From Mangrovimonas sp. ST2L15 (GTDB taxonomy: Bacteria; Bacteroidota; Bacteroidia; Flavobacteriales; Flavobacteriaceae): a stretch of 64,000 nucleotides of DNA. Each line of letters opens with the position of its first letter. Position 1 is the first letter of the stretch. The translations under genes were made by a program, and so were the position numbers. The stretch lies in assembly GCF_001280515.1 (NCBI RefSeq), contig NZ_LBIQ01000030.1, forward strand, positions 1,240,001 to 1,304,000, in the 5' to 3' direction. Of this stretch, positions 9,025 to 31,398 are shown piece by piece. The notes beneath the pieces are model-generated. The model was not told where the DNA came from, searched no databases, and saw only the letters and a program-made list of their open reading frames with translations.

Positions 9025-10542
9025 TTAAACTAATGATTTTTGTGTCATAGCTTCTGGCTGTTCTACGCCCATCATGTGTAAAATAGTCGGAGCCATGTCT
9101 CCTAGAATACCATTCTTAATTTCTTTCAAGTCTTTGTCAATCAAAATAATTGGGACCGGATTGGTCGTGTGGGCTGTATTTGGTGTGCCATCAGGATTGA
9201 TCATGGTTTCACAATTCCCATGGTCTGCAATCAACAAAGTTGAATAATCATTTTCAAGAGCGGTTGTAACCACATCTTTTACGCAATCATCAACAGCTTC
9301 ACATGCTTTGATAGCAGCTTCCATGACGCCAGTGTGTCCTACCATGTCACCGTTGGCAAAATTGAGACATACAAAATCAATATCCCCTTTTTGTAAAACA
9401 GGTACTAAAGCATCTCTGAGTTCATAGGCACTCATTTCGGGTTTTAAATCATAAGTGGCCACTTTTGGTGAGTTTCTTAAAATTCTTTCTTCCCCTTCAA
9501 AAGGCTCTTCTTTTCCTCCAGAGAAGAAGAATGTAACGTGTGGATACTTTTCAGTTTCTGCAATACGCAATTGTTTTTTGTGATGTTTTTCCAAAACTTC
9601 CCCTAGAGTATCCTTTAAGTTGTCTTTGGTATATACCACATGTATGTTTTGGAAGGTGTCGTCATAAGTAGTCATGGTGACATAGTAAAGTGACAACTTG
9701 TGCATGTTTTGCTCATGGAAATCTGATTGTGATAGGGCTTCTGTTAATTGACGGCCTCTGTCAGTTCTGAAGTTGAAGAACAGCACCACATCCCCTTCTT
9801 GAATTTTAGTAACAGGTTCTTGGTTTTCATCAACCATGACGATAGGTTTGATAAACTCATCAGTAACGTCTTGATCATAACTTTCTTGGATAGAAGCCAA
9901 AGCATCTTGGGATTTGCTCCCTTCTCCATTAACCAGGGCGTCATAAGCTAATTTGACACGTTCCCAGCGTTTATCTCTATCCATGGCATAATAACGACCG
10001 GTGACGGTTGCTAATTTGGTATTCGTGTCTTTTACGTGATTCTCCAGACTTTCTATAAACCCATAGCCTGATTTTGGGTCTACGTCACGTCCATCTGTGA
10101 AAGCATGCACATAAGACGATGGTACACCATAGTCTTTGGCAGCGTCAATCAAACCAAATAAGTGTTTTATGTGCGAGTGAACCCCTCCATCGCTTACCAA
10201 TCCTAAAAAGTGAACTGGTTTGTTGTTTGATTTGGCATATTCAAAGGCATCTTTAATGACTTTTTCATCTTTTAAAGTGTCTTTTTCAACAGCCATATTA
10301 ATCTTTACCAAATCTTGATAAACAATACGGCCAGCACCCAAATTCATGTGTCCAACTTCACTGTTTCCCATCTGGCCTTCTGGCAAACCAACATTAAGTC
10401 CGTCGGTTCTCAAACTAGCATTGGGGTACTTGGTATATAGGGAATCTATAAAAGGAGTATTGGCATTGTCAATAGCTGAAACTTTTGGGTCTGGAGATTT
10501 TCCCCACCCGTCTAAAATCATTAAAATTACTTTCTTATTCAT
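9025..10542 (-). CDS. gpmI: 2,3-bisphosphoglycerate-independent phosphoglycerate mutase
   Basis: Interconverts 3- and 2-phosphoglycerate in glycolysis and gluconeogenesis using two Mn ions and a phosphoserine. 505 residues, full length. Metal site 1 and catalytic Ser: ILDGWG at residue 8 and MGNSEVGHMNLGAGR near 57-70. Insert domain: GLVSDGGVHSH, HAFTDGRDVDP and TVTGRYYAMDRDKRWER. Metal site residues also in FANGDMVGHTG and LIADHGNCETM, then TAHTTNPVP. Single gene; the upstream region has a TATCTTTA sequence, a near match to the -7 consensus. Confidence 0.97.
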   Translation of the reverse strand: MNKKVILMILDGWGKSPDPKVSAIDNANTPFIDSLYTKYPNASLRTDGLNVGLPEGQMGNSEVGHMNLGAGRIVYQDLVKINMAVEKDTLKDEKVIKDAFEYAKSNNKPVHFLGLVSDGGVHSHIKHLFGLIDAAKDYGVPSSYVHAFTDGRDVDPKSGYGFIESLENHVKDTNTKLATVTGRYYAMDRDKRWERVKLAYDALVNGEGSKSQDALASIQESYDQDVTDEFIKPIVMVDENQEPVTKIQEGDVVLFFNFRTDRGRQLTEALSQSDFHEQNMHKLSLYYVTMTTYDDTFQNIHVVYTKDNLKDTLGEVLEKHHKKQLRIAETEKYPHVTFFFSGGKEEPFEGEERILRNSPKVATYDLKPEMSAYELRDALVPVLQKGDIDFVCLNFANGDMVGHTGVMEAAIKACEAVDDCVKDVVTTALENDYSTLLIADHGNCETMINPDGTPNTAHTTNPVPIILIDKDLKEIKNGILGDMAPTILHMMGVEQPEAMTQKSLV

Positions 10543-10800
10543 GTTTACAAACTTTGGTACTGTAAAGATAATTCATATAAATGTCTTGAATAAATATGGG
10601 ACTTTAAAATAAATGACTTTATGGAATTTTTATGATTTCTGAAAGGAACTGGAACCCAAAAAAGAGAGATGTACAAAATTTAACAGATTTGTTCTCTGAT
10701 AGTTAATAAAATGTTATAAAAAATATTTTGTGTAACAATCTAAAAATTTAATCGTCTCTTTAATACAATCAAAAAAATCATTAATCAAAAATCTTTCATC

Positions 10801-11187
10801 ATGAAAAAAACAGCAGTCATTCTTGCAATCGCATTAGGCTTTTCTTTTAGTCTAGTAAATGCCAATCACAATCCAGTATCATCAACTGCATTGGAAACCT
10901 TAATCGGACCAAAAATTAGTCCTTTATGTATGTCAATAGTTAAGGGAGATACAGAAACAGTAAAAAAATTATTAGGACTAGGTGTTGATGTCAATGAAAA
11001 ATCAGCTGGAATGACTCCAGCAATCTATGCAGCCCGATACAATAGAGTAGAGATTTTAAACTACCTTATTGAAAGCGGTGCAAACTTAAAAGTAAAATGC
11101 GACAAAGGCTATACAGCCTTAGAACATGCAGAAATGTCTAATGCTACTGAGGCCAAAGCTGCCATTAAAAGCGCTTTGGATAAATAA
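10801..11187 (+). CDS. Exported ankyrin-repeat protein
   Basis: 128 residues. Cleavable signal peptide (KKTAVILAIALGFSFSLVNA, cut near residue 21). The mature part has about two and a half ankyrin repeats: CMSIVKGDTETVKKLLGLG, VNEKSAGMTPAIYAARYNR, VEILNYLIESG and KCDKGYTALEHAEMSNATEA. Ankyrin repeats bind proteins; the partner is unknown. The gene is preceded by a 258-bp AT-rich region in which I see no clear -7 consensus box, and it is followed by a strong hairpin terminator at 11219-11248. Small secreted ankyrin proteins of this size are common in flavobacteria. Confidence 0.8.
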   Translation: MKKTAVILAIALGFSFSLVNANHNPVSSTALETLIGPKISPLCMSIVKGDTETVKKLLGLGVDVNEKSAGMTPAIYAARYNRVEILNYLIESGANLKVKCDKGYTALEHAEMSNATEAKAAIKSALDK

Positions 11188-18533: not shown

Positions 18534-19175
18534 CTAACGCTTTCTACTTATTGTTAAGCCATCACGTATGGGCAAAATAACGGTTTCAACACGAGAATCT
18601 TCCTTCAATAGTTGATTGTATTCAACCAATAGTTTTGTTGACGTATCCTTATCATTAATAGGTTCGGCTACTTTGCCACTCCAAAGAACATTATCTGAAA
18701 GGATGATGCCTCCAGGTCTCAATTTGTCTACAATAGCATGAAAATAATTGATGTAATTTGGTTTGTCGGCATCAATAAAAACCAAATCGAAAGTGTGATC
18801 AAGTTTTGGAATGATATCTAAGGCATTACCTAAATGCTGATAAATTTGTTCTCCAAATGGTGAGGCGTCAAAATACTTCCTTTGAAAATCCACCAGTTCC
18901 TCATTTACGTCAATGGTATGTAATTCACCACCCTTTGTTAAGCCTTCCGCCAAACATAGCGCAGAATATCCTGTATAGGTCCCTATTTCCAATATGTATT
19001 TAGGCTGAATTAATTTGGAAAGCATGCTTAAAACCCTTCCTTGGTAGTCGCCACTTAACATTCTTGGTTGTAAAATTTTTTGATGGGTCTCTCTGTTGAG
19101 CTTTTGCAGAAGCTCCGGCTCATTTTCAGAGTGCTTTACAACATAGTTGTCAATATGTTCAGGCAGAAAATGCAT
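18534..19175 (-). CDS. O-methyltransferase (Methyltransf_3 / COMT-like)
   Basis: 213 residues, the family length. SAM motif I ILEIGTYTGYSALCLAEGL near residue 57, metal- and SAM-binding VFIDADKPNYINYF near residue 133, and GGIILSDNVLWSG (metal ligand Asp-Asn). Divalent-metal-dependent enzymes of this family methylate catechol-like hydroxyls and related compounds. It starts 1 nt after the ACMS decarboxylase gene, which makes a phenolic pathway intermediate or by-product (3-hydroxykynurenine, 3-hydroxyanthranilate) a possible substrate. That is inference from position. Confidence 0.88.
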   Translation of the reverse strand: MHFLPEHIDNYVVKHSENEPELLQKLNRETHQKILQPRMLSGDYQGRVLSMLSKLIQPKYILEIGTYTGYSALCLAEGLTKGGELHTIDVNEELVDFQRKYFDASPFGEQIYQHLGNALDIIPKLDHTFDLVFIDADKPNYINYFHAIVDKLRPGGIILSDNVLWSGKVAEPINDKDTSTKLLVEYNQLLKEDSRVETVILPIRDGLTISRKR

Positions 19176-19176
19176 A

Positions 19177-20259
19177 TTAAGCCAGAATCTTGTTTACTAA
19201 ATTTTGCTTTTTGACTTCATCATCACCAAATAACCATTGCAATACATTATCCTCCCACATGGCATCCTTTTCAGTTTCGTCGATGATATTTCTCTCAATG
19301 GCTAAATCCAAAATTTTCCCTGGATATGAAGATTGGGTAGTGCTTTCCATTTCCCCTAATGGATACGGATCGTCCAAGCCAATTAGCACCTGTTTAGCCG
19401 TTTGGTTTTTTATCAATAATTGAAGTGAGCCTGTGTCATGCACTAGGGTGTCAAAGAATATGTTTTTATGCCCCACAGCTTTTCTAGGATGTACTTTACC
19501 TTCAAATAAATCATGACGACCATCAAACCCTTGAATACGTCGCCCTAAATTAATCTGGGCCAATTGTCCGCCATGAGCAAAACAAATTCGCATATTTGGA
19601 TATTTCTCATAGTAACCATTTAAGGTTAGGAAGTGGTAAGCATCTGCGCATTGTGCTAACATCCAGATCAAATGAAATCTCCAAGCAGTGTTTTGAAGTT
19701 TGATGAATTTCTCTCCATCATAGGGGTGAATTTCAACGGCCAAATTATATTTGTTGGCTAACTCAAAAATAGGTTCGTTTTCCTCATCAAAAATACAACG
19801 CCAAGTTCCAATAGTGTCCATATAATGGGTGGGAAGGCATAATAAGTTCATACCTAACTCTTCCACACAACGCTCAATTTCCCAGCAAGCACCACGAACA
19901 AATCCTGGGTGTACTACAAATCCACACGTGAATTTGCTAGGGTTTTCGGCTTGAATTCTACCATTAAAATCATTTTGAAACCTAAGGGCCTGCTTCATCT
20001 CTTCTAAACGCAGACCGTTCCCATACAACTGCGACAAGTTGAGTACTACCGCATGATCTATTTTGTAGCGCTCCATCCATTCAAGCTTCTCGTTTAAGAA
20101 AAAACTCGAATCGGTTACAGGTCTGCTCCAGTCTTTCTGAAGCATGTATTTTCTGTCTTTGTCAACCCAAAAAATACCCTTATCCTTCATAAATTGAGGA
20201 ATCTCCTCGGGATAGGGCAATAGGTGAGAATGGCCATTAATTCTTAGTTTGCGTTTCAT
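19177..20259 (-). CDS. 2-amino-3-carboxymuconate-6-semialdehyde decarboxylase (amidohydrolase family)
   Basis: Removes CO2 from ACMS to give 2-aminomuconate semialdehyde, steering the path away from quinolinate. 360 residues, near the ~335 of known ACMSD enzymes. Amidohydrolase metal ligands are visible: INGHSHLLP (HxH, residues ~9-11), AVEIHPYDGEKF (His ~ 178), ICFAHGGQLAQ (His ~ 228) and LIGLDDPYPLGEM (Asp ~ 297). The last motif matches ACMSD strongly. It lies 20 nt downstream of the 3-hydroxyanthranilate dioxygenase gene that makes its substrate, which supports the call. Known in Pseudomonas as NbaD. Confidence 0.92.
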   Translation of the reverse strand: MKRKLRINGHSHLLPYPEEIPQFMKDKGIFWVDKDRKYMLQKDWSRPVTDSSFFLNEKLEWMERYKIDHAVVLNLSQLYGNGLRLEEMKQALRFQNDFNGRIQAENPSKFTCGFVVHPGFVRGACWEIERCVEELGMNLLCLPTHYMDTIGTWRCIFDEENEPIFELANKYNLAVEIHPYDGEKFIKLQNTAWRFHLIWMLAQCADAYHFLTLNGYYEKYPNMRICFAHGGQLAQINLGRRIQGFDGRHDLFEGKVHPRKAVGHKNIFFDTLVHDTGSLQLLIKNQTAKQVLIGLDDPYPLGEMESTTQSSYPGKILDLAIERNIIDETEKDAMWEDNVLQWLFGDDEVKKQNLVNKILA

Positions 20260-20279
20260 GTTGGTAGTTGGTAGTAATA

Positions 20280-20816
20280 TTAGTCTTCTAGTTGTACTTT
20301 TTTAGGTGGTTGCATCACTTGCCCACAATTGGGACAGGTTCGCTTCTCGGGATCGCCATAGTATTTATCAAAAATTTTGGGCATGTCAGTTTCAATGTTG
20401 TCCAATGTAAAATCTTCCTCATACAATTTGGTTGTGCAGTTTTCACAAAACCACAACAAGGCATCTTGCACTCCTTTCTCTCTTGGGTATTCTATAACCA
20501 AGCCCACGGTGTTAGCACCACGTTGTGGAGAATGTGGAACTTTTGGAGGCAAAAGAAAGATTTCACCTTCCTTTATGTGAATGTCTTTAGGTTGACCTTC
20601 GTCAATAACTTTTAAAACAATATCTCCTTCCACTTGGTAGAAAAACTCAGGAGTTTCATTGTAGTGATAATCTTTACGGCTGTTAGGCCCGCCAACTACC
20701 ATGACAATAAAGTCGCCATCTTTCCAAACCACTTTATTCCCTACAGGAGGTTTTAACAAGTGACGGTTTTCTTCAATCCATTCTTTGAAATTTATAGGAG
20801 AAACTAATTGGCTCAT
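20280..20816 (-). CDS. 3-hydroxyanthranilate 3,4-dioxygenase
   Basis: Opens the ring of 3-hydroxyanthranilate with O2 to give ACMS. 178 residues, a bacterial-type single cupin. Catalytic iron ligands fit His and Glu in RKDYHYNETPEFFYQVEGD (near 47-53) and His in LPPKVPHSPQR (near 94). The C-terminal rubredoxin-like iron site of bacterial enzymes is complete: WFCENC near 125 and RTCPNCGQ near 161. Immediately upstream of the ACMSD gene. In other organisms called HaaO or NbaC. Confidence 0.95.
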   Translation of the reverse strand: MSQLVSPINFKEWIEENRHLLKPPVGNKVVWKDGDFIVMVVGGPNSRKDYHYNETPEFFYQVEGDIVLKVIDEGQPKDIHIKEGEIFLLPPKVPHSPQRGANTVGLVIEYPREKGVQDALLWFCENCTTKLYEEDFTLDNIETDMPKIFDKYYGDPEKRTCPNCGQVMQPPKKVQLED

Positions 20817-20830
20817 ATGTTATTTTTTTA

Positions 20831-20900
20831 GGCGTGCCCCTTGCGGGTCGGGTTTTTCGCGCTACACGGTAGCTAGCTTCAACCCCTCACGCGGGTTTTG
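20831..20900. repeat. GC-rich intergenic repeat-like element
   Basis: A 70-bp patch much richer in G and C than its surroundings fills the 91-bp gap between the HAO and SDR genes. It begins GGCGTGCCCCTTGCGGGTCG, contains the palindrome AGCTAGCT at 20871-20878, and can close on itself by GCGTG (20832-20836) with CACGC (20888-20892). From memory, sequences of the form GCGTGCCCC..CGGGTCGGG..TTTCGC recur between genes in many Bacteroidota genomes. Coding content is not likely. Confidence 0.55.
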
Positions 20901-20907
20901 GTTAAAT

Positions 20908-21690
20908 TTACAAACTTTTTGTTCGACCACCATCAACAGGAAGGTTAATTCCGTTGATATAACTGGCGCGAGAACTTGCTAAAAACGTGATAGCATCAGC
21001 CAATTCCTCGGGTTGGGCAAAACGTTTGGCTGGCACCGCTTGTTTCATGGCCTCGGCAGCTTCATCTTCACTTTTACCTGTTTTTGCCGATTTATTTTTA
21101 ATGATTTCCGTCAATCGCTCTGTTCCTGTTGCCCCGGGTAGGACATTATTCACCGTGATTCCAAATTGTCCTAACTCATTGGCTAGAGTCTTGCTCCAGT
21201 TTGCAACGGCACCACGAATGGTATTGCTCACCCCTAAACCATCCAAAGGTTGTTTTACTGAGGTGGAAATAATGTTTATGATCCTTCCAAAACCAGTTTC
21301 TTTCATAAAAGGAACAACTGCTTGCGCCAAAACGTGATTGCATTTTAAATGTTGGGTAAAGGCATTTTCAAATTCTTCAAGTTTAGCACTAAATACTGGG
21401 CCTCCGGCAGGACCTCCTGTATTATTTACCAAAATATGGAAGCCATGGTTTTGAGTTATAAAGGTGTTTACCTTTTCTTGAAGTTCTTCAGGGTTTGAAA
21501 AATCAGCAACCAAATAACTGTGCTTGTCTGAGTTTGGTAAACCCCTTAACACTTCTTTTAACTTGGTTTCATTTCGAGCCACTAAAGTGACTGTTGCGCC
21601 TTCGTTGGCTAGAGAAATAGCAGTTGCTTTTCCTATACCAGCGGTACTTCCACAAACTAGGGCGTATTTATTATTTAGTTCTAGATTCAT
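20908..21690 (-). CDS. SDR-family protein with altered catalytic residues
   Basis: 260 residues. The NAD(P)-binding start is good (ALVCGSTAGIGKATAISLA), with DFSNPEEL, ILVNNTGGPAGGP (NNAG site) and the C-terminal FLASSRASYINGINLPVDGG. At the catalytic place the usual Tyr-x3-Lys is replaced: the chain runs STSVKQPLDGLGVSNTIRGA, so Ser and Arg stand where Tyr and Lys belong. A subgroup of SDRs has this form; their reactions are poorly known. It sits in the kynurenine cluster between two repeat elements, so it may be a later insertion or an accessory reductase. Confidence 0.85.
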   Translation of the reverse strand: MNLELNNKYALVCGSTAGIGKATAISLANEGATVTLVARNETKLKEVLRGLPNSDKHSYLVADFSNPEELQEKVNTFITQNHGFHILVNNTGGPAGGPVFSAKLEEFENAFTQHLKCNHVLAQAVVPFMKETGFGRIINIISTSVKQPLDGLGVSNTIRGAVANWSKTLANELGQFGITVNNVLPGATGTERLTEIIKNKSAKTGKSEDEAAEAMKQAVPAKRFAQPEELADAITFLASSRASYINGINLPVDGGRTKSL

Positions 21691-21714
21691 TTTCTAAGTT
21701 AATTTTTTTTGTCA

Positions 21715-21734
21715 GGTCGAGCGCAGTCGAGACC
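21715..21734. repeat. Palindromic repeat, downstream copy beside GIY-YIG gene
   Basis: GGTCGAGCGCAGTCGAGACC contains the 14-bp core TCGAGCGCAGTCGA (21717-21730), the exact reverse complement of the core at 22061-22074. It ends 4 nt after the stop codon of the GIY-YIG gene. It can form a hairpin with TCGA arms and a six-base loop. Confidence 0.75.
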
Positions 21735-21738
21735 TTTC

Positions 21739-22050
21739 TTAGGGTTTGTATTTGGAATGCGTTGCATTTCGGCATTCAGATAATATTTGAATTAAATCAA
21801 AGTCACCATTTGACAATGCTAATTTCTTTTTCCTACTCCATGTTTTAATTTTCTTTTCAAAATAGATTGCTTGTTCAATATCATTGAATTCTTGTTGAAA
21901 AACTAATTTTAATGGTCTTCTTTTATAAGTGAAGCATTTTGTGTTTAAACCATTTTGATGTTCTTCAAACCTCCTTCCAAGATTATTTGTAACTCCTGTA
22001 TAAGTTAAATGATCAGAACAAAGTAATATGTAAACATAATAGGTTTCCAT
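21739..22050 (-). CDS. GIY-YIG nuclease domain protein, flanked by inverted palindromes
   Basis: 103 residues, a single UvrC/YhbQ-type GIY-YIG domain. The motifs are YYVYILLCSD (GIY position), TYTGVTNNLGRRFEEHQNG (YIG position plus catalytic Arg), FTYKRRPLKLVFQQEF and AIYFEKKIKTWSRKKKLAL with the metal-binding Glu. It ends SECRNATHSKYKP. No DNA-binding domain is attached. The gene lies inside the kynurenine cluster, on the same strand, yet has no metabolic link to it. Two inverted copies of one palindrome lie just outside the coding sequence (see the repeats at 21715 and 22057), giving a compact unit that looks mobile or repeat-maintaining. Alternatives: a DNA-repair-like nuclease, with palindromes there by chance or as terminators. 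Confidence 0.9.
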   Translation of the reverse strand: METYYVYILLCSDHLTYTGVTNNLGRRFEEHQNGLNTKCFTYKRRPLKLVFQQEFNDIEQAIYFEKKIKTWSRKKKLALSNGDFDLIQILSECRNATHSKYKP

Positions 22051-22056
22051 TATTTA

Positions 22057-22078
22057 CCTCTCGACTGCGCTCGAGGGG
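22057..22078. repeat. Palindromic repeat, upstream copy beside GIY-YIG gene
   Basis: CCTC-TCGA-CTGCGC-TCGA-GGGG: eight-pair stem (one T-G) with loop CTGCGC. The core TCGACTGCGCTCGA at 22061-22074 is the exact inverted match of the copy at 21717-21730. It begins 6 nt before the GIY-YIG ATG and would hide the ribosome entry site when folded in mRNA. Confidence 0.75.
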
Positions 22079-22088
22079 ACATACGATT

Positions 22089-23531
22089 TTAATATTTTAT
22101 ACAAACATTCTTAGGTTCGGTAAAAAATCGTAAGGCATCAAAGCCGCCTTCACGACCTACACCGCTGGCTTTTACTCCACCAAAGGGTGTACGCAAATCA
22201 CGTAACATCCATGTGTTAACCCATACAATTCCAGCCTGCAATTGTTGGCTCATTCGCATGGTGCGTTTTAGGTCATTAGTCCAAAGGGTCGTGGAGAGAC
22301 CATATTTTACCTTATTCGCCATTTGTAAAACTTCATCTTCGGTTTCAAAAGGCATGATAGTTACAACTGGGCCAAAAATTTCTTCTTGATTCACACGGCA
22401 TTCATCCGTTTTAACCTCAATGACGGTAGGCTCGAGATAATAACCATTTTCAAAACCTTCAACAGTTACCTGGTTGCCCCCGCATAGTATGCTTCCGCCT
22501 TCTTCTTTGGCAATATCAATGTAGTTTAAAACCTTTTCCAAATGGGGTTTGGAGACTAAGGCGCCAATATTGGTGTATGTTTTTGCCGGATGACCTACTT
22601 TCAGGCCTTTAACTTTTGCAACGAAATCGGCTTTAAATTGGTCGTAAATAGTTTTTTCTACAAAAATTCGGCTTCCGCAAAGGCAAATTTGCCCTTGATT
22701 AGCAAATGAGGAACGTACCGTTGTGTTAAGCATATCCTCATAATCACAATCTGCAAAAATGATATTGGGGTTTTTTCCGCCCAATTCCAACGATAGCTTT
22801 TTAAACATCGGGGCTGCTACTCTTGCAATATGGGCTCCAGTTGCCGTACCTCCCGTAAAGGAAATGGCTTTAATGTCTGGATGTTCAATAATGGCTTGAC
22901 CTGTTGAGGTTCCCAAACCATGAACAATGTTTAAAACTCCCTTAGGTAAACCTGCTTCATTACAAATTTCTCCCAGTAAAAAAGCTGTCATAGGCGTAAC
23001 TTCGCTGGGTTTGGCAACAACACAATTACCAGCTGCTAATGCAGGGGCAATTTTCCATGTAAATAAATAAAGCGGTAAATTCCATGGGGAAATGCAGCCG
23101 ACAACGCCTATAGGTTGTCTTAGGGTATAATTAATAGCTTGTTGACCTACACTTTCATGACTTTCACTGGCAAATTGCGTAATGGCATTTCCGAAAAATC
23201 GAAAATTACTTGCGGCTCTGGGAATGTCTACCGACTTGGCCAAACTTATTGGCTTGCCATTGTCCTTACTTTCAGCTTCTGCAAATCGATCTAGATTAGC
23301 CTCCAGTAATTCCGATATTTTAATCAAGATACGGCTCCGTTCTTCCAAAGTCGTTTGCGACCAATTAGGAAAAGCAGATTGGGCTGCTAAATAAGAGTTT
23401 TCAACATCTTCTTTAGTTGAATTAGGGATTTGGCCATATACTTCTCCATTGGCTGGACAGTAGTTGTCAATCCAATCGTTAGATGATGGATTATGAAAAC
23501 TTCCGTTTATATAATTTTGGATTTTTTCCAC
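22089..23531 (-). CDS. Aldehyde dehydrogenase, probable 2-aminomuconate semialdehyde dehydrogenase
   Basis: 480 residues, full ALDH length. Active-site Cys in NQGQICLCGSRIF near residue 280, general base Glu in LELGGKNPN near 250, NAD-binding SFTGGTATG near 224, and EEIFGPVVTI near 385. The group of hydroxymuconic/aminomuconic semialdehyde dehydrogenases shares the QICLCGSR pattern. Next to HAO and ACMSD genes, the expected reaction is 2-aminomuconate semialdehyde + NAD+ to 2-aminomuconate. A -7 box lies at 23556-23563, so this gene may start its own transcript inside the cluster. Confidence 0.92.
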   Translation of the reverse strand: MEKIQNYINGSFHNPSSNDWIDNYCPANGEVYGQIPNSTKEDVENSYLAAQSAFPNWSQTTLEERSRILIKISELLEANLDRFAEAESKDNGKPISLAKSVDIPRAASNFRFFGNAITQFASESHESVGQQAINYTLRQPIGVVGCISPWNLPLYLFTWKIAPALAAGNCVVAKPSEVTPMTAFLLGEICNEAGLPKGVLNIVHGLGTSTGQAIIEHPDIKAISFTGGTATGAHIARVAAPMFKKLSLELGGKNPNIIFADCDYEDMLNTTVRSSFANQGQICLCGSRIFVEKTIYDQFKADFVAKVKGLKVGHPAKTYTNIGALVSKPHLEKVLNYIDIAKEEGGSILCGGNQVTVEGFENGYYLEPTVIEVKTDECRVNQEEIFGPVVTIMPFETEDEVLQMANKVKYGLSTTLWTNDLKRTMRMSQQLQAGIVWVNTWMLRDLRTPFGGVKASGVGREGGFDALRFFTEPKNVCIKY

Positions 23532-23555
23532 AAAATATTATAGTTGGTTTGATTC

Positions 23556-23563
23556 CAAAAGTA
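23556..23563 (-). promoter_or_regulatory. -7 box (TACTTTTG) upstream of the semialdehyde dehydrogenase gene
   Basis: TACTTTTG on the minus strand fits TAnnTTTG and ends 24 nt before the ATG. It suggests that the lower half of the kynurenine cluster is a separate transcript. Confidence 0.5.
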
Positions 23564-23635
23564 CAAATAAATTAAGGAAGCTACCCCATGAAAATCCCGT
23601 GCATATTTTGTATTTTGGTCTAAGTAATTCGTCTT

Positions 23636-23986
23636 ATGAATGTTGAAAACAGTTTCTCGATTATTCTTTTGACCACTTCTGTATTAATGTTTTTTACAGG
23701 TTGGTGGCAAACCAAAAAACCACCTAAATACCAGGAGGACTTTAAAATGCTTTCTAAATCCAAGCGAGCCGGAAGAAGTTCGGAGCATTGGTATTTTTCC
23801 TTAAGCTATGGAGGAAACCTTTACTTAAAATTTGCAGGCATTCTTTTTGGCTTAGGTATATTGGGATTTTTGTTAAATTTCCAAATGATGGTTGGTTTTA
23901 TCCTCGCCATCTCCATTGTTGTTATTGGAGTTGCCGTTATAGGGTTGAAAACGGAAAAGGCTTTAGTTAATAAGTTTGGGAAATAG
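23636..23986 (+). CDS. Small membrane protein of unknown function
   Basis: 116 residues with three membrane helices: SIILLTTSVLMFFTGWW (7-23), LKFAGILFGLGILGFLLNF (62-80) and MVGFILAISIVVIGVAVIG (84-102). Between the first two lies a basic stretch, KSKRAGRSSEHWYFSLSYG. No family recognised. It lies on the plus strand and splits the otherwise minus-strand kynurenine cluster in two, between ridA and the dehydrogenase gene, so it is probably not part of the pathway. Confidence 0.7.
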   Translation: MNVENSFSIILLTTSVLMFFTGWWQTKKPPKYQEDFKMLSKSKRAGRSSEHWYFSLSYGGNLYLKFAGILFGLGILGFLLNFQMMVGFILAISIVVIGVAVIGLKTEKALVNKFGK

Positions 23987-24000
23987 ACTCTAGTTTTTTA

Positions 24001-24411
24001 TTATTCTTGTTTCTTATAAGCCGTTACCTTGATCTCTACAACTAAATCAGGATGAGGTAGCTGATGTACTGCTACCGTAGTTCTTGTTGGGCCTGTTTCT
24101 TTCTCAAAGAATTCCCCATAAGCTTTGTTGTAACCAGCAAAATCATTCATATTCACCAAAAAAGTGGTTACATCTACGACATCTTTGATGCTAGCTCCAA
24201 CGGTTTGTAAGTTTCTGTCGATGTTTTTTAAGACCTCACGGGTTTGAACTTCTATATCCAGTTTTTTGGTGTTCATCTCGTCTATCAATTCGACTCCTGC
24301 AATGGTGTTGTCTGGTTTCCTAGAACTAGTACCTGAGACAAAAATGAAATCGCCAACTACTTTTACATGCGGATAGGCTCCTCTGGGTGTTACTTTTTTT
24401 TCTTCACTCAT
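24001..24411 (-). CDS. RidA/YjgF-family deaminase, probable 2-aminomuconate deaminase
   Basis: 136 residues from the ATG at 24411; an ATG at 24432 would overlap the kmo gene and add seven residues. Family marks: [45 protein letters not shown], and the C-terminal [23 protein letters not shown] with the invariant Arg. RidA proteins hydrolyse enamines and imines. 2-Aminomuconate deaminases of nitrobenzoate and tryptophan degraders (AmnD, NbaF) belong to this family. With the rest of the cluster here, deamination of 2-aminomuconate to oxalocrotonate is the best guess; general enamine detoxification is the alternative. Confidence 0.85.
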
Positions 24412-24415
24412 CGTT

Positions 24416-25813
24416 TTATGCGTTTTTAGCAATGCGATCTTCTTCTAAAATATGATCGGTTTCTACTTTAACTTTTTCAAAATTGGTTTTTAAATCATCT
24501 TCCATATTTAAAGTGCCATCGGCCAGCATGTTTAAAATGGCTTTGTCCTGGGCACGTCCCCTCAACATGGCTTCTTGATATCCTATATCTTCATTAAAAG
24601 TCACTAGGGAATATTTTGAAGCGTACTCTGGAAATTCTTTTTCCAAAGCCATTTCCAATTTTCGTTTTTCCCTAAAGTTAGGGTGATTGACATGACCCTT
24701 CATTTCATGGAAATTGTCAATGGCTAAATCAGCTATGGCGTCGGTGTCCTTTTTGCGTCGGGATTCATAAATTTTAAAGATGGTTTCCCAATCCTTATGT
24801 TCTTCTTCCAATACTTGATCTAAGACCGTTACATCCTCAAAGGAAGCATTCATCCCCTGCCCATAAAAAGGAACAATGGCATGCGCTGCATCACCCATCA
24901 ACAAGGTGTTTCCTTTGTAATGCCAAGGAGAACATTTCACTGTTCCCAAAGGCGATGTAGGGTTTTCAAAAAAGTCTTCAGCCAAATTAGGCATCAATTC
25001 CAAAGCATCTTTAAAATATTTATCAAAGAACTCCAAAACGCTTTCTTTGGTTGTTAGGTTGTTGAAATTGTATTCCCCTTCATCATAACTTAAGAACAAT
25101 GTGACTGTAAAACTGCCATCCAAATTGGGTAAAGCAATAAGCATAAACGATTCACGTCCCCAAATATGCAAAGCATTTTTAAAGGTTTTAAAATCACCAT
25201 TCTCGTTGGGTAAAATAGAAAGTTCCTTATAGCCGTGAGAGAGCCAATTTTGAGAAAAGCTAAAAAGGAATTTTTTACTCAAATAGTAACTTTTTCTCAT
25301 TGCTGATCCAGCACCGTCAGTCGCGAAAATGACATCGGCATCTTCAACAAACTCAGATTGGCTATTATAATCCTTAAAAGTAGCAGTGGTTTTCTCGAAA
25401 TCGACAGAAAGGCATTTTTTGTTGAAATGGATGGTAACATTATCATGCTTTTCTGCTTCGTCGAGCAATAGAGAATTCAAGCCACCTCTGGAGATGGAAT
25501 TGATATATTCCTCTTCGCGCCCGCTGTAAGGGGCTAAGATGGTATTCCCTTCCAAATCGTGAAGCATTCTTCCATTCATAGGAATACAAAGTGGCATCAC
25601 TTTATCCAGAATGCCGACCATGTTCATGGCTTTGATTCCTCGATCTGAAAAGGCTAAATTTATGGATCTTCCGGCACTTATGTCAACTTTGCGCATGTCT
25701 GGACGCATTTCCATAACAGTTACGTTATAACCTCGTTGACCAAGTCGCAATGCTAAAAGAGAGCCACAAAGTCCGGCACCAATAATTAGTATGTTTTGTT
25801 GTTTATCTTTCAT
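24416..25813 (-). CDS. kmo: Kynurenine 3-monooxygenase (FAD)
   Basis: Hydroxylates kynurenine to 3-hydroxykynurenine with NADPH and O2. 465 residues from the ATG at 25813; an upstream in-frame ATG at 25834 is possible but adds only a polar extension. FAD-binding start [21 protein letters not shown], the ADP site [11 protein letters not shown] near residue 165, and the second FAD motif [24 protein letters not shown] near residue 305. [15 protein letters not shown] near residue 50 is typical for KMO. No C-terminal membrane anchor, as in other bacterial forms. 4 nt upstream of ridA. Confidence 0.96.
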
Positions 25814-25843
25814 TTTTTTATTTTCAGAGAACATGAATTCGAT

Positions 25844-28908: not shown

Positions 28909-31398
28909 ATGAAATCACAAATTTTACTTTTAAAGCGCCAAAACTTCCAACATGTTCACTCTGAAAAAAACCTTAATGCTTTAATTAAAAAGACAATCAG
29001 ATCTTCTAAATTATTTTTTCAATTACTATTTTTTCTTTTTGTATCGATAATGTTTTCACAAGAAGACATCGTTTTTCCTCCTGAAGGAATTTCTTGTACT
29101 TCAAAGGATTTAGAACTTGTTGGGGCATCTTTACCTCCTCCAGGTAATGACCCCTGTGCTTGTGATGGAACCAGAACATTAACCCTGAAAATCTATAATA
29201 AAACCGGTTCTACCCGAACCTCATTTGCCTTTTGGGGTTACCTCCATAGGTATGATTCTAGCGGTAATGAGCTCCCTGGATCGCCTACACCTATCTTTGC
29301 TTGTGGAGGTCCAGTCCTACCCAATCAAGAAACAGAGATAACTACCGCAACAGCCATTACTGTGAGCTGTAATGAATCCTTGGAAATTACTGATTTGACA
29401 TTAGCATGGACTTCAGCCAGTCCCAACCAAACTTGTGAAGTATTATTTAATAATCCAGATGAGATCAACCCAAAATGTGGAACCTTACCCCAAATTGCGG
29501 TAGAAACTGGTGTCAATGGTGTTCTTTCAGTAACTGATGCTACGTGTACAAGTGGAGGATCCATTCAAGTGTCTCCATTCGGTGGTGTCCCGCCGTATTC
29601 TGTGCAAATTGATGGGCAAACAGGAATTACAGTCAATTCTGGTGGTTCAACAACTTTTTCCGCTTTGACAGCAGGTTCGCATACCGTAACGATTACAGAT
29701 TCAAATGCTCCCAGTGGCTGTACTAATTCTTTTAACCGTACTATTAATGCAGCTGTCGTTCCGACTACTCTCGTTCTTACAGGTAGCTCTATATGTAGTT
29801 CTAATGCTAATACGGGTGGGATTACCTCTTCGGGGTCAGAGACTGGTGTCAGTTATCAACTTTATGATAGCTCTAATGCCACAGTTCAAAGTGCACAAAA
29901 TGGAACGGGGTCTGGATTGAGCTGGAGCAACCTTCCCGCTGGTAATGGGTATTATGTAATAGGTACTGGATCATCAACTATTCCTTGTACTTCACAAAGT
30001 AACACAGTCAATGTTTCAACAGTTACCAATCCTACTGCCTTGGTTTTGACAGGTAGTTCTATATGTAGTTCGGCACCAAATACAGGGGCAATTACCTCTT
30101 CAGGGTCAGAAACAGGAGTTAGTTATCAACTTTATGATAGTTCTAATGCGACCGTTCAAAGTCCCCAAAATGGAACAGGATCTGGATTGACGTGGAGTAA
30201 TCTTCCATCTGGTAATAATTATTACGTAGTAGGTACAGGAGCATCACCAACTTCCTGTACTTCCCAAAGTAATGCAGTCAATGTCTCAACTGTGACCAAT
30301 CCAACAGCCTTGGTTTTGACAGGTAGTTCCATATGTAATTCAGCACCAAATACAGGAGTAATTACATCTTCTGGATCAGCAACAGGTGTGAGTTATCAGC
30401 TTTATGATAATTCTAATGCCGCTGTTCAAAGCCCACAAAATGGAACCGGATCAGGATTGACATGGAGTAATCTTCCATCAGGCAACGGTTATTATGTGGT
30501 AGGTACAGGAGCATCACCAACCTCGTGTACTTCCCAAAGTAATACAGCCAATGTGTCAACAGTAGCCAATCCGATTGCCTTGGTTTTAACAGGTAGTTCT
30601 ATTTGTAGCTCTAATCCGAATACAGGAGGGATTACCTCTTCAGGGTCAGAAACAGGTGTTAGTTATCAACTTTATGATAGCTCTAATGCAACTGTTCAAA
30701 GTCCTCAAAATGGAACTGGATCTGGGTTGAGTTGGAGTAATCTTCCGTCTGGAAATGGATATTATGTAATTGGCACAGGGACAATCCCAACAAGTTGTAC
30801 TGCACAAAGTAATGGTGTCAATGTTAGTTCGGTGAATAATCCTGGAACGCCGGTGGTAGGTATAAAAACTAATGCGAGCTGTTCGTCGTCATCCATTACC
30901 TTGGAAGTTACCTTTCCATTAGGAAATTATGAGTACAATAATAATGACGGTCCTTGGCAAGAAAGTACCGAATTTGTAATTGCAGCTGGAGCTGGGTATA
31001 GTATCAAGGCTCGTATAAAAGGAGGTCTCTTATGTGAATCTAATGCTGACACTTGCCAAGGAGAACAGCAAGTGGAGAAGTTAGCTTCTAACGAAATGGA
31101 GGTTCCTCAATTGGAAAGTTTGGAGTTGGCTATAAGGGAGCCTTCAATAAAGGCTTACCCAAACCCCTTCAACAATGAGGTTAATTTTAAAGTAGATGTT
31201 CCAGATAAAAGTGAAGGAGAATTGGTATTAATGAATTTGTTAGGCCAACGCGTAATGACTGTATTTTCAGGTGAAATAAAAGAGGGTAGTAATCATTATC
31301 AGGTCAATTTACCTTCATTAAATTCAAATACATTGATTTACATTTTATCCATTAATGGAGAGCGCTTTACAGGGAAGCTCGTCCAAAACAAAATGTAG
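28909..31398 (+). CDS. T9SS type A surface protein with four near-identical 90-residue repeats
   Basis: 829 residues. A long basic N-terminus (residues 1-33) precedes the signal helix LFFQLLFFLFVSIMFSQ, so the real start could be later, though no better ATG is present. Residues ~60-190 form a Cys-containing domain (GNDPCACDGTRTLTLKIYN). Residues ~195-283 are an SprB-type repeat (GVLSVTDATCTSGGSIQVS). Residues 285-644 are four 90-residue repeats starting near LVLTGSSICSS. The C-terminus is a type A sorting domain (KAYPNPFNNEVNFKV, LVLMNLLGQRV, ending GKLVQNKM). Probably an adhesin-like surface protein. Terminator at 31438. Confidence 0.88.
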   Translation: MKSQILLLKRQNFQHVHSEKNLNALIKKTIRSSKLFFQLLFFLFVSIMFSQEDIVFPPEGISCTSKDLELVGASLPPPGNDPCACDGTRTLTLKIYNKTGSTRTSFAFWGYLHRYDSSGNELPGSPTPIFACGGPVLPNQETEITTATAITVSCNESLEITDLTLAWTSASPNQTCEVLFNNPDEINPKCGTLPQIAVETGVNGVLSVTDATCTSGGSIQVSPFGGVPPYSVQIDGQTGITVNSGGSTTFSALTAGSHTVTITDSNAPSGCTNSFNRTINAAVVPTTLVLTGSSICSSNANTGGITSSGSETGVSYQLYDSSNATVQSAQNGTGSGLSWSNLPAGNGYYVIGTGSSTIPCTSQSNTVNVSTVTNPTALVLTGSSICSSAPNTGAITSSGSETGVSYQLYDSSNATVQSPQNGTGSGLTWSNLPSGNNYYVVGTGASPTSCTSQSNAVNVSTVTNPTALVLTGSSICNSAPNTGVITSSGSATGVSYQLYDNSNAAVQSPQNGTGSGLTWSNLPSGNGYYVVGTGASPTSCTSQSNTANVSTVANPIALVLTGSSICSSNPNTGGITSSGSETGVSYQLYDSSNATVQSPQNGTGSGLSWSNLPSGNGYYVIGTGTIPTSCTAQSNGVNVSSVNNPGTPVVGIKTNASCSSSSITLEVTFPLGNYEYNNNDGPWQESTEFVIAAGAGYSIKARIKGGLLCESNADTCQGEQQVEKLASNEMEVPQLESLELAIREPSIKAYPNPFNNEVNFKVDVPDKSEGELVLMNLLGQRVMTVFSGEIKEGSNHYQVNLPSLNSNTLIYILSINGERFTGKLVQNKM
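29761..30840 (+). repeat. Four in-register 270-bp tandem repeats
   Basis: Units at 29761, 30031, 30301 and 30571, each 270 bp (90 codons). The landmark AGGTAGYTCYATHTGTARYT appears at 29781, 30051, 30321 and 30591, exactly 270 apart. The copies are alike at the DNA level, differing by scattered, often silent changes, which points to recent duplication or gene conversion. Confidence 0.95.

Follow-up and report, generated by a model that had tools for sequence, protein, structure and literature searches.

The window analysed here, a 64,000-nt stretch of the Mangrovimonas sp. ST2L15 genome (GCF_001280515.1, contig NZ_LBIQ01000030.1, positions 1,240,001-1,304,000 of the forward strand), carries a gene for a stand-alone, Slx1/UPF0213-like GIY-YIG nuclease of 103 aa (21739..22050, minus strand), which interrupts what is presumably a kynurenine-type operon, being placed between a presumed aldehyde dehydrogenase (ALDH) gene (ORF at 22089..23531, minus strand; a neighbour conserved in relatives) and a presumed SDR gene (ORF at 20908..21690, minus strand; an orthologue is found in 103 of the 199 family genomes at E<=1e-90). 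The nuclease ORF matches Pfam GIY-YIG (PF01541) with an E-value of 3.7e-17, and this is the only Pfam domain found in it, which bears out the single-domain gene described in an earlier note on this DNA; NCBIfam holds no model for the protein, and Rfam gave no match at E<=1 for window positions 20000-24000. Two 25-nt palindromic REP elements, both with their TGTC tags facing outward, enclose the gene: TGTCA-GG-TCGAGCGCAGTCGAGA-CC downstream (21710..21734, plus strand), an element further backed by family counts and arm covariation, and TGTCC-CC-TCGAGCGCAGTCGAGA-GG upstream (22057..22081, minus strand). The 14-mer TCGACTGCGCTCGA is present exactly at 22061-22074 (plus) and 21717-21730 (minus), that is, on both sides of the gene and in opposite orientation as had been claimed, and no third copy with up to two mismatches exists elsewhere in the window (chance expectation 0.03). 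The distances given earlier for the palindrome ends, 4 nt from the stop codon and 6 nt from the ATG, hold for the full 25-nt elements, and the palindrome-gene-palindrome arrangement is real, although the unit is slightly larger than the 364 bp proposed for it, spanning 372 bp from tag to tag (21710..22081, minus strand). Elsewhere in the window (28909-31398), an 829-aa protein with near-identical internal repeats (TGSSICSS...NTG.ITSSGS) is encoded.

By sequence, the solved structures closest to the nuclease are the UPF0213 proteins 1zg2 (phmmer against the PDB, E 4.2e-11) and 1ywl, and Foldseek with an AlphaFold model (mean pLDDT 76) retrieved the same two entries followed by Slx1, a branched-DNA nuclease by PDB entry titles, with only 1zg2 below an E-value of 0.001; the UPF0213 family presumably includes YhbQ and YazA-like members. 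The predicted catalytic residues Y7, Y17, R27, H31 and E65 are all present in the window protein and are conserved in 180, 181, 184, 183 and 183 of 184 homologous ORFs, respectively, their roles being, we assume, those of the Tyr, Tyr, Arg, His and Glu residues of GIY-YIG enzymes in general, which hydrolyse DNA without a covalent intermediate. The window enzyme is, in short, a minimal Slx1/UPF0213-like GIY-YIG protein.

A genome-wide count of the palindrome, which the earlier note had suggested, came out above chance, as six exact copies of TCGACTGCGCTCGA are present in the 3.56 Mb genome and none of the reversed-pattern control, and a longer tagged pattern allowing up to three mismatches likewise gave six copies and no control hits. 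Two copies outside the window, of the same type as those within it (type A, see below), form a head-to-head dimer with its tags facing outward. Seven GIY-YIG matches were found in this genome, and the other short full-length gene among them (L008, a 106-aa open frame) also lies between inverted TGTC-tagged palindromes, which differ in sequence from the window's (TGTCATGCTGAATTTATTTCAGCATCT upstream and TGTCATCCTGAACTTGTTTCAGGATCT downstream). The four longer proteins (L009, L011, L012 and L013), three of which appear by eye to be UvrC-like or DnaQ-fused, had inverted-repeat (IR) scores of 6, 13, 9 and 8, respectively (the downstream flank of L009 being cut by the stretch end), the IR score being obtained by reverse-complementing the downstream flank and aligning it locally to the upstream one (match +1, mismatch -2). 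A further match, L010 (C24:1628391-1631591 of the same genome, about 1420-1809), is an 80-aa GIY-YIG ORF directly before an intact tRNA-Pro (1734-1809), upstream of which a tRNA-like fragment is, by eye, apparently broken by a TCTCGACTACGCTCGAGA palindrome. A RAYT hiding in the genome was ruled out, as nothing in it matches the RAYT-defining family of Y1 transposases (PF01797).

Homologs of the nuclease (E<=1e-10) occur in 84 of 199 Flavobacteriaceae genomes, decaying copies with stops being present among them, and the flanks of 30 loci and of 40 further stretches show the same REP-gene-REP plan with differing palindromes, namely type A (TCGAGCGNAGTCGAGA), type B (CTGAGCGCAGTCGAAG), type C (TTCGAGTG...TGTATCGAGAA), type D (CTGAA..TTCAG) and type H (CTGAGCNTGTCGAAG). 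When tagged hairpins were sought with a generic detector based on folding, 11 of 42 GIY genes and 24 of 556 other ORFs had a match on either side; because bulged palindromes, the window's type included, escaped this detector, the IR score took its place. An IR score of at least 14 was then seen at 18 of 41 GIY genes against 6 of 536 other ORFs in the 40 stretches, and was absent at the other 23 GIY genes (the ORF caller found no GIY ORF in four stretches, L052, L058, L066 and L070, and of the 42 found in the others, one lay too near a stretch end). The type-A REP itself numbers 966 copies in 85 of the 199 genomes, with up to 111 per genome and none for the reversed control, and is present in 31 of the 34 genomes that carry a close enzyme (E<=1e-30) compared with 54 of the 165 others (Fisher 1.5e-10, indicative only, as are the other association p-values, because the genomes tested are related); its mean copy number is 17.8 in the former and 2.2 in the latter, and at least five copies are found in 24/34 and 26/165 of them, respectively. 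The enrichment beside GIY-YIG genes that had been anticipated is borne out. The correspondence is not complete in either direction: 27 of the 84 enzyme-bearing genomes are devoid of the type-A REP, which is in part explained by enzymes that go with other REP types, and some genomes without a detected enzyme hold numerous type-A REPs (30 copies in G084, 26 in G080 and 22 in G156).

The arrangement extends far beyond this family. Querying plasmids by tblastn with L008, the second GIY-YIG protein, gave 33 records, including ones from Azospirillum lipoferum, Sinorhizobium meliloti, Novosphingobium aromaticivorans and Neisseria, and among the eight stretches taken from this search, [CT]GTC-tagged palindromes were visible near the gene in seven, the IR score across the gene reaching at least 14 in six (12 in Planktothrix, none in Photobacterium). 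A scan of named-species genomes (nominally 84,980 species) with four proteobacterial GIY queries gave 561 confirmed loci, the best 80 of which belong, judging by record titles, to alpha-, beta- and gammaproteobacteria, Bacteroidota, Omnitrophota, Nitrospirae, Chloroflexota, candidate-phyla bacteria and others. Among these best 80, an IR score of at least 14 was found at 56 of the 78 usable GIY loci and absent at 22 (L156 was dropped for a flank too short and L148 for runs of N), as opposed to 12 of the 611 remaining ORFs in these loci, 4 of 115 ORFs that had at least 100 bp free on both sides (Fisher 1.8e-25 for the GIY loci against these) and 5 of 109 ORFs of up to 150 aa. The control ORFs are slightly contaminated, with matches in L129 and L098 falling in further GIY/REP repeats, which works against the enrichment claim. 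A tag near the start of both arms was, among the IR matches of the same best 80 loci, seen at 30 of 57 GIY loci and at none of 12 control ORFs.

The classic CGTC-1 REP, one type of these wider hosts, was found by pattern in 15 of 18 genomes from the named-species set (control 0), 15 of the 18 having been picked because their flanks suggested CGTC-1 or a related type. Among 300 Burkholderiales genomes, the enzyme is present in 50, the CGTC-1 REP in 90 and the control in none, the REP occurring in 39 of the 50 genomes with the enzyme versus 51 of the 250 without it (Fisher 1.1e-14, again merely indicative); 17 of 30 Burkholderiales GIY loci have an IR score of at least 14, the other 13 do not, and many CGTC-1 REPs can be present in genomes with no enzyme detected (e.g., 118 in G533 and 106 in G517). 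Both Arenibacter units (G210:C21:72959-73702 and G215:C5:56129-57768) have all of the ATTCC-type REP copies found in their genomes at up to one mismatch (three and five, respectively) at the GIY locus itself, which suggests that these units are recent arrivals whose REP has not yet dispersed. The palindromes occurring by chance was ruled out as an explanation, the reversed controls being zero in the single window genome and in the sets of 199, 18 and 300 genomes.

For comparing the enzymes with their REPs, 188 GIY records were kept (ORFs shorter than 75 aa or with short or N-containing flanks were left out), of which 112 had an IR score of at least 14 within 200-bp flanks and 117 a score of at least 13. 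A symmetric count over the latter 117 loci found tags facing outward only at 67, inward only at 14 (p 1.9e-9 for outward against inward), both ways at 9 and unreadable at 27. Enzyme identity and REP similarity, compared for the 94 of these 117 loci with a readable tagged repeat, correlated (Mantel r of 0.54 for all loci and of 0.77 for the 31 from Flavobacteriaceae), and none of 2000 permutations reached either value. The REP strings compared had been extracted by looking for an outward tag first, and a few are visibly misread (e.g., L045, L068, L074 and L112), which adds noise; the best value from permutations stratified into Flavobacteriaceae and others (0.446) also stayed below the observed 0.54. 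A tree of 73 of these short GIY proteins, in which few forks are well supported, requires five changes to distribute five REP types over its 63 labelled rows, compared with at least 23 in each of 300 label shuffles; ten rows had no REP label, among them that of L008, whose palindromes are visible but were missed by the regular expressions. Two labelled paralogs from different clades occur together in nine genomes. In eight of these (G013, G024, G132, G138, G148, G163, G168 and G174), the two carry different, clade-matched REPs; the ninth (G005) is ambiguous, an A-like motif and a B-like one both being found at its second paralog locus. Such matching within a single genome is not what host ancestry alone would yield, and host kinship alone was, on the grounds of these paralogs and the stratified permutation, ruled out as its cause.

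These figures also bear on a further explanation, namely, that REPs simply mark intergenic DNA tolerant of insertions, where small genes gather by chance or hitch-hike on REP recombination. REPs have indeed been reported as targets of IS-element insertion (PMC1525189), and other REP families do occur in the ALDH-SDR gap of relatives of the window's genome, but other ORFs, including small or free-spaced ones, mostly have no enclosing inverted repeats, the enzyme clade matches the REP type, and the tags face outward more often than inward, all of which leaves a passive hotspot disfavoured and, in our judgement, very improbable.

As for the mobility of the unit, the empty sites that the earlier note had proposed seeking in relatives do exist. 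The ALDH gene was captured in the stretches fetched from 29 relatives; eight of these have the GIY-YIG gene in the ALDH-SDR gap (the window's own counted and two of the copies broken) and 21 do not, the latter including the sole congener in the sample (G028), whose gap is, by eye, unlike the window's. Paired palindromes from a different REP family (TTCCTGCGAAAGCAGGAAT-like, of the ATTCC type) are, again by eye, present in the ALDH-SDR gap of L183, L185, L187, L198 and L205. The note's placement of the gene inside a metabolic operon stands, but its statement that the gene has no link to that operon is not quite right, since close relatives of the unit, of type A, occupy the same kynurenine-type operon (18534-25834 in the window, and L020-L049) at several of its joints: they are found there at 13 of 21 examined loci (of 30 fetched family loci) from many genera, namely, after ALDH on the SDR side at eight, before ALDH at three (two of these just after RidA), and at the KMO-RidA and ACMSD-methyltransferase joints at one each. 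Either local hopping or a functional tie might account for this preference.

A recent duplication of the unit at a new site is seen in a genome of the Rhizobium genus (G242), where two copies of the unit lie 40 kb apart on opposite strands and are identical through the gene and the downstream REP to about 14 bases past its tag, with unrelated sequence outside; their upstream REPs differ, and, with only one REP identical, the unit may not move as REP-gene-REP. The joint between the presumed phoB and gcrA genes was compared in G242 and 16 other loci of the genus, and holds REP-gene-REP in three genomes (G242, G279 and G287), a REP dimer in three (G227, G298 and G315), REPs without the gene in two (G272 and G288), no REP in two others (11 bp in G262 and 66 bp in G257) and other sequence of 206-497 bp in the remaining seven loci. 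Tandem copies of the unit exist in G013 and G108. One locus of the former genome (L065; G013:C15, about 9100-10950) is a tandem array of long type-C REP units that includes two GIY genes for identical proteins. Several Rhizobium loci (L098 and L238-L243) have their GIY units inside larger mosaics of other repeats, and many genomes of the genus share a stretch of about 105 bp that adjoins the unit (query 1403-1511).

It is at this point that the strongest rival has to be considered, in which something else spreads the REPs and the GIY-YIG gene, as a free-standing homing endonuclease, cuts REP dimers and copies itself between their halves, thereby protecting the site. The gene does have one half of a head-to-head pair on each side, sites orthologous to one another contain either a REP dimer or REP-gene-REP, the G242 copies differ in their upstream REPs as if the gene and one REP had entered beside a resident REP (unequal REPs that fit homing well), and GIY-YIG enzymes include homing endonucleases (PMC1564403). 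Homing by itself, however, does not account for REP copy number going with the enzyme, or for REP type going with the enzyme clade among paralogs of the same genome, and the closest structures are UPF0213 and Slx1 rather than homing enzymes, so we regard it as unlikely, if worth keeping in mind.

The palindromes themselves seem to be maintained as hairpins. Among 65 distinct type-A copies, which represent seven arm types and, having been gathered by a pattern requiring [CT]GTC, are no test of the tag, 63 have Watson-Crick pairing in both outer arm pairs (65/65 if G-T is allowed), compared with a mean of 21.6 and a maximum of 33 copies after partner shuffling, which argues that arm pairing has been preserved across sequence change. 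Folded alone as DNA, type-A hairpins are weak (-2.4 and -3.6 kcal/mol; z of 0.05 and -1.1) and the CGTC-1 hairpin is strong (-9.0 kcal/mol; z of -4.1); the L008-type and CGTC-1 REPs have 8-bp stems starting with AT, and the type-A stem is short, bulged and without the AT start. Upstream REPs no more than 12 nt from the ATG are of the CC..GG form with the 3' arm GAGAGG at five of six loci, and in the window, this GAGAGG, just before the ATG, is a possible ribosome-binding site, making translational control by the upstream hairpin, as the earlier note had envisaged, plausible from the sequence and perhaps coexistent with mobility.

Such control is central to another explanation, according to which the enzyme would be a domesticated maintenance nuclease that cuts or resolves REP cruciforms for the sake of replication, with the flanking REPs as sensors regulating its own gene, the one as a hairpin over the ribosome-binding site and the other as a transcript end behind the stop. 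The CC..GG upstream REPs with GAGAGG so close to the ATG would suit it, as would the modelled structural likeness to the branched-DNA nuclease Slx1, and DNA repair is the published guess for prokaryotic Slx1-like proteins (PMC1564403). The patchy spread (84/199 family genomes and 50/300 Burkholderiales), decaying copies with stops, multiple copies and a recent duplication nevertheless look selfish rather than housekeeping, and domestication is, to our mind, distinctly doubtful.

We return to the reading of the unit as mobile, and consider it quite probable that it is an autonomous copy of a REP-type element in which CGTC/TGTC-tagged REPs have the GIY-YIG enzyme as their dedicated partner; the REP/RAYT-like arrangement with a GIY-YIG instead of a Y1 enzyme, which the earlier note had proposed, is supported by the enrichment and the empty sites. 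That the enzyme cuts and moves REPs is something we infer because the two co-occur and match in type, the catalytic residues are conserved and the unit has recently been duplicated. A Slx1/UPF0213-like nuclease encoded between two head-to-head REPs, with [CT]GTC tags at the outer ends, would, under such a scheme, recognise a REP extruded as a hairpin or cruciform, much as Slx1 does branched DNA, with the tag as a landmark, and would cut at or near the tag, after which host repair or replication might copy the REP-(gene)-REP segment elsewhere, often beside a resident REP. With hydrolysis proceeding without a covalent intermediate, such movement would have to lean on host recombination instead of HUH strand transfer. 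The scattered gene-free REPs and REP dimers would then be non-autonomous copies, and the enzyme would be to CGTC/TGTC REPs what the RAYT tyrosine transposases are to GTAG REPs.

How far this can be generalised is a matter of some consequence, as Di Nocera et al. (2013; PMC3733652) described a super-family of CGTC/TGTC-tagged REPs that "apparently lack a dedicated transposase". CGTC-tagged REPs, one of two major classes of hairpin repeats in bacteria and including those of Neisseria (dRS3), span many bacterial phyla, and we lean, with less assurance, towards stand-alone Slx1-like GIY-YIG nucleases mobilising that whole super-family, which would give REP transposition a second class of independent origin, relying on hydrolytic hairpin cutting and host repair in place of HUH tyrosine chemistry. 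If this is true, the question of how CGTC-tagged REPs spread, posed in 2013, would be answered and the transposase gap closed, a widespread family annotated as nothing more than "GIY-YIG nuclease family protein" would gain a function, and bacteria would turn out to have two unrelated enzyme solutions to one kind of repeat; the matched enzyme/REP pairs would be ready substrates for a direct test, and the enzymes, at about 95-105 aa, may offer a compact nuclease that is both sequence- and structure-specific. A GIY-YIG-REP link was not found in the available parts of the open-licence literature, PMC3733652, PMC12306157, PMC6006769, PMC1564403 and PMC9465073 included (a report elsewhere being possible); the accessible text of PMC9465073 has both terms, unlinked, in a Moraxella clade gene table and in its prose.

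Set against known systems, the palindromes fit the CGTC/TGTC super-family, including neisserial dRS3, in their tag and dispersal. The account of that super-family (PMC3733652) gives a 5' CGTC/TGTC tag, an 8-9 bp palindromic stem starting with complementary AT and mostly head-to-head dimers, in hosts that overlap with those found here (A. lipoferum, S. meliloti, N. aromaticivorans, Neisseria and Bacteroidetes). Both window REPs carry TGTC, an outward tag is present at 76 of 117 loci (those with tags facing both ways included), the dispersal of the 966 type-A copies is as described above, if with only six in the window's own genome, and head-to-head pairs are seen in that genome and among the type-A copies, with only four gene-free dimers counted in the fetched stretches. 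Type A of the Flavobacteriaceae departs from the described stem, being short, bulged and without the AT start, and what distinguishes the present loci from that account is the GIY-YIG gene between such REPs. The enzyme resembles the Slx1/UPF0213 stand-alone nucleases in being a minimal single GIY-YIG domain whose best PDB matches are 1zg2 and 1ywl, then Slx1; such proteins are discussed in the accessible text of PMC1564403 as repair or restriction-like and without a tie to REPs. With the I-TevI-type homing endonucleases, the unit shares a GIY-YIG gene that interrupts a repeat or target and presumably copies itself, but 103 aa are too few to accommodate a NUMOD or any further DNA-binding domain, and the target would be a dispersed repeat family. 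The closest parallel is arguably REP/RAYT (TnpA-REP), with its REPtrons and REPINs, where a nuclease-type gene is likewise bordered by inverted tagged REP hairpins, gene-free REP dimers are dispersed, enzyme and REP co-vary and the distribution is patchy; the enzyme here is, however, a GIY-YIG protein and not an HUH/Y1 tyrosine transposase, and the tag is [CT]GTC and not GTAG, so that, differing in both features by which a REPtron is defined, the unit seems to work like one without being a member of that class.
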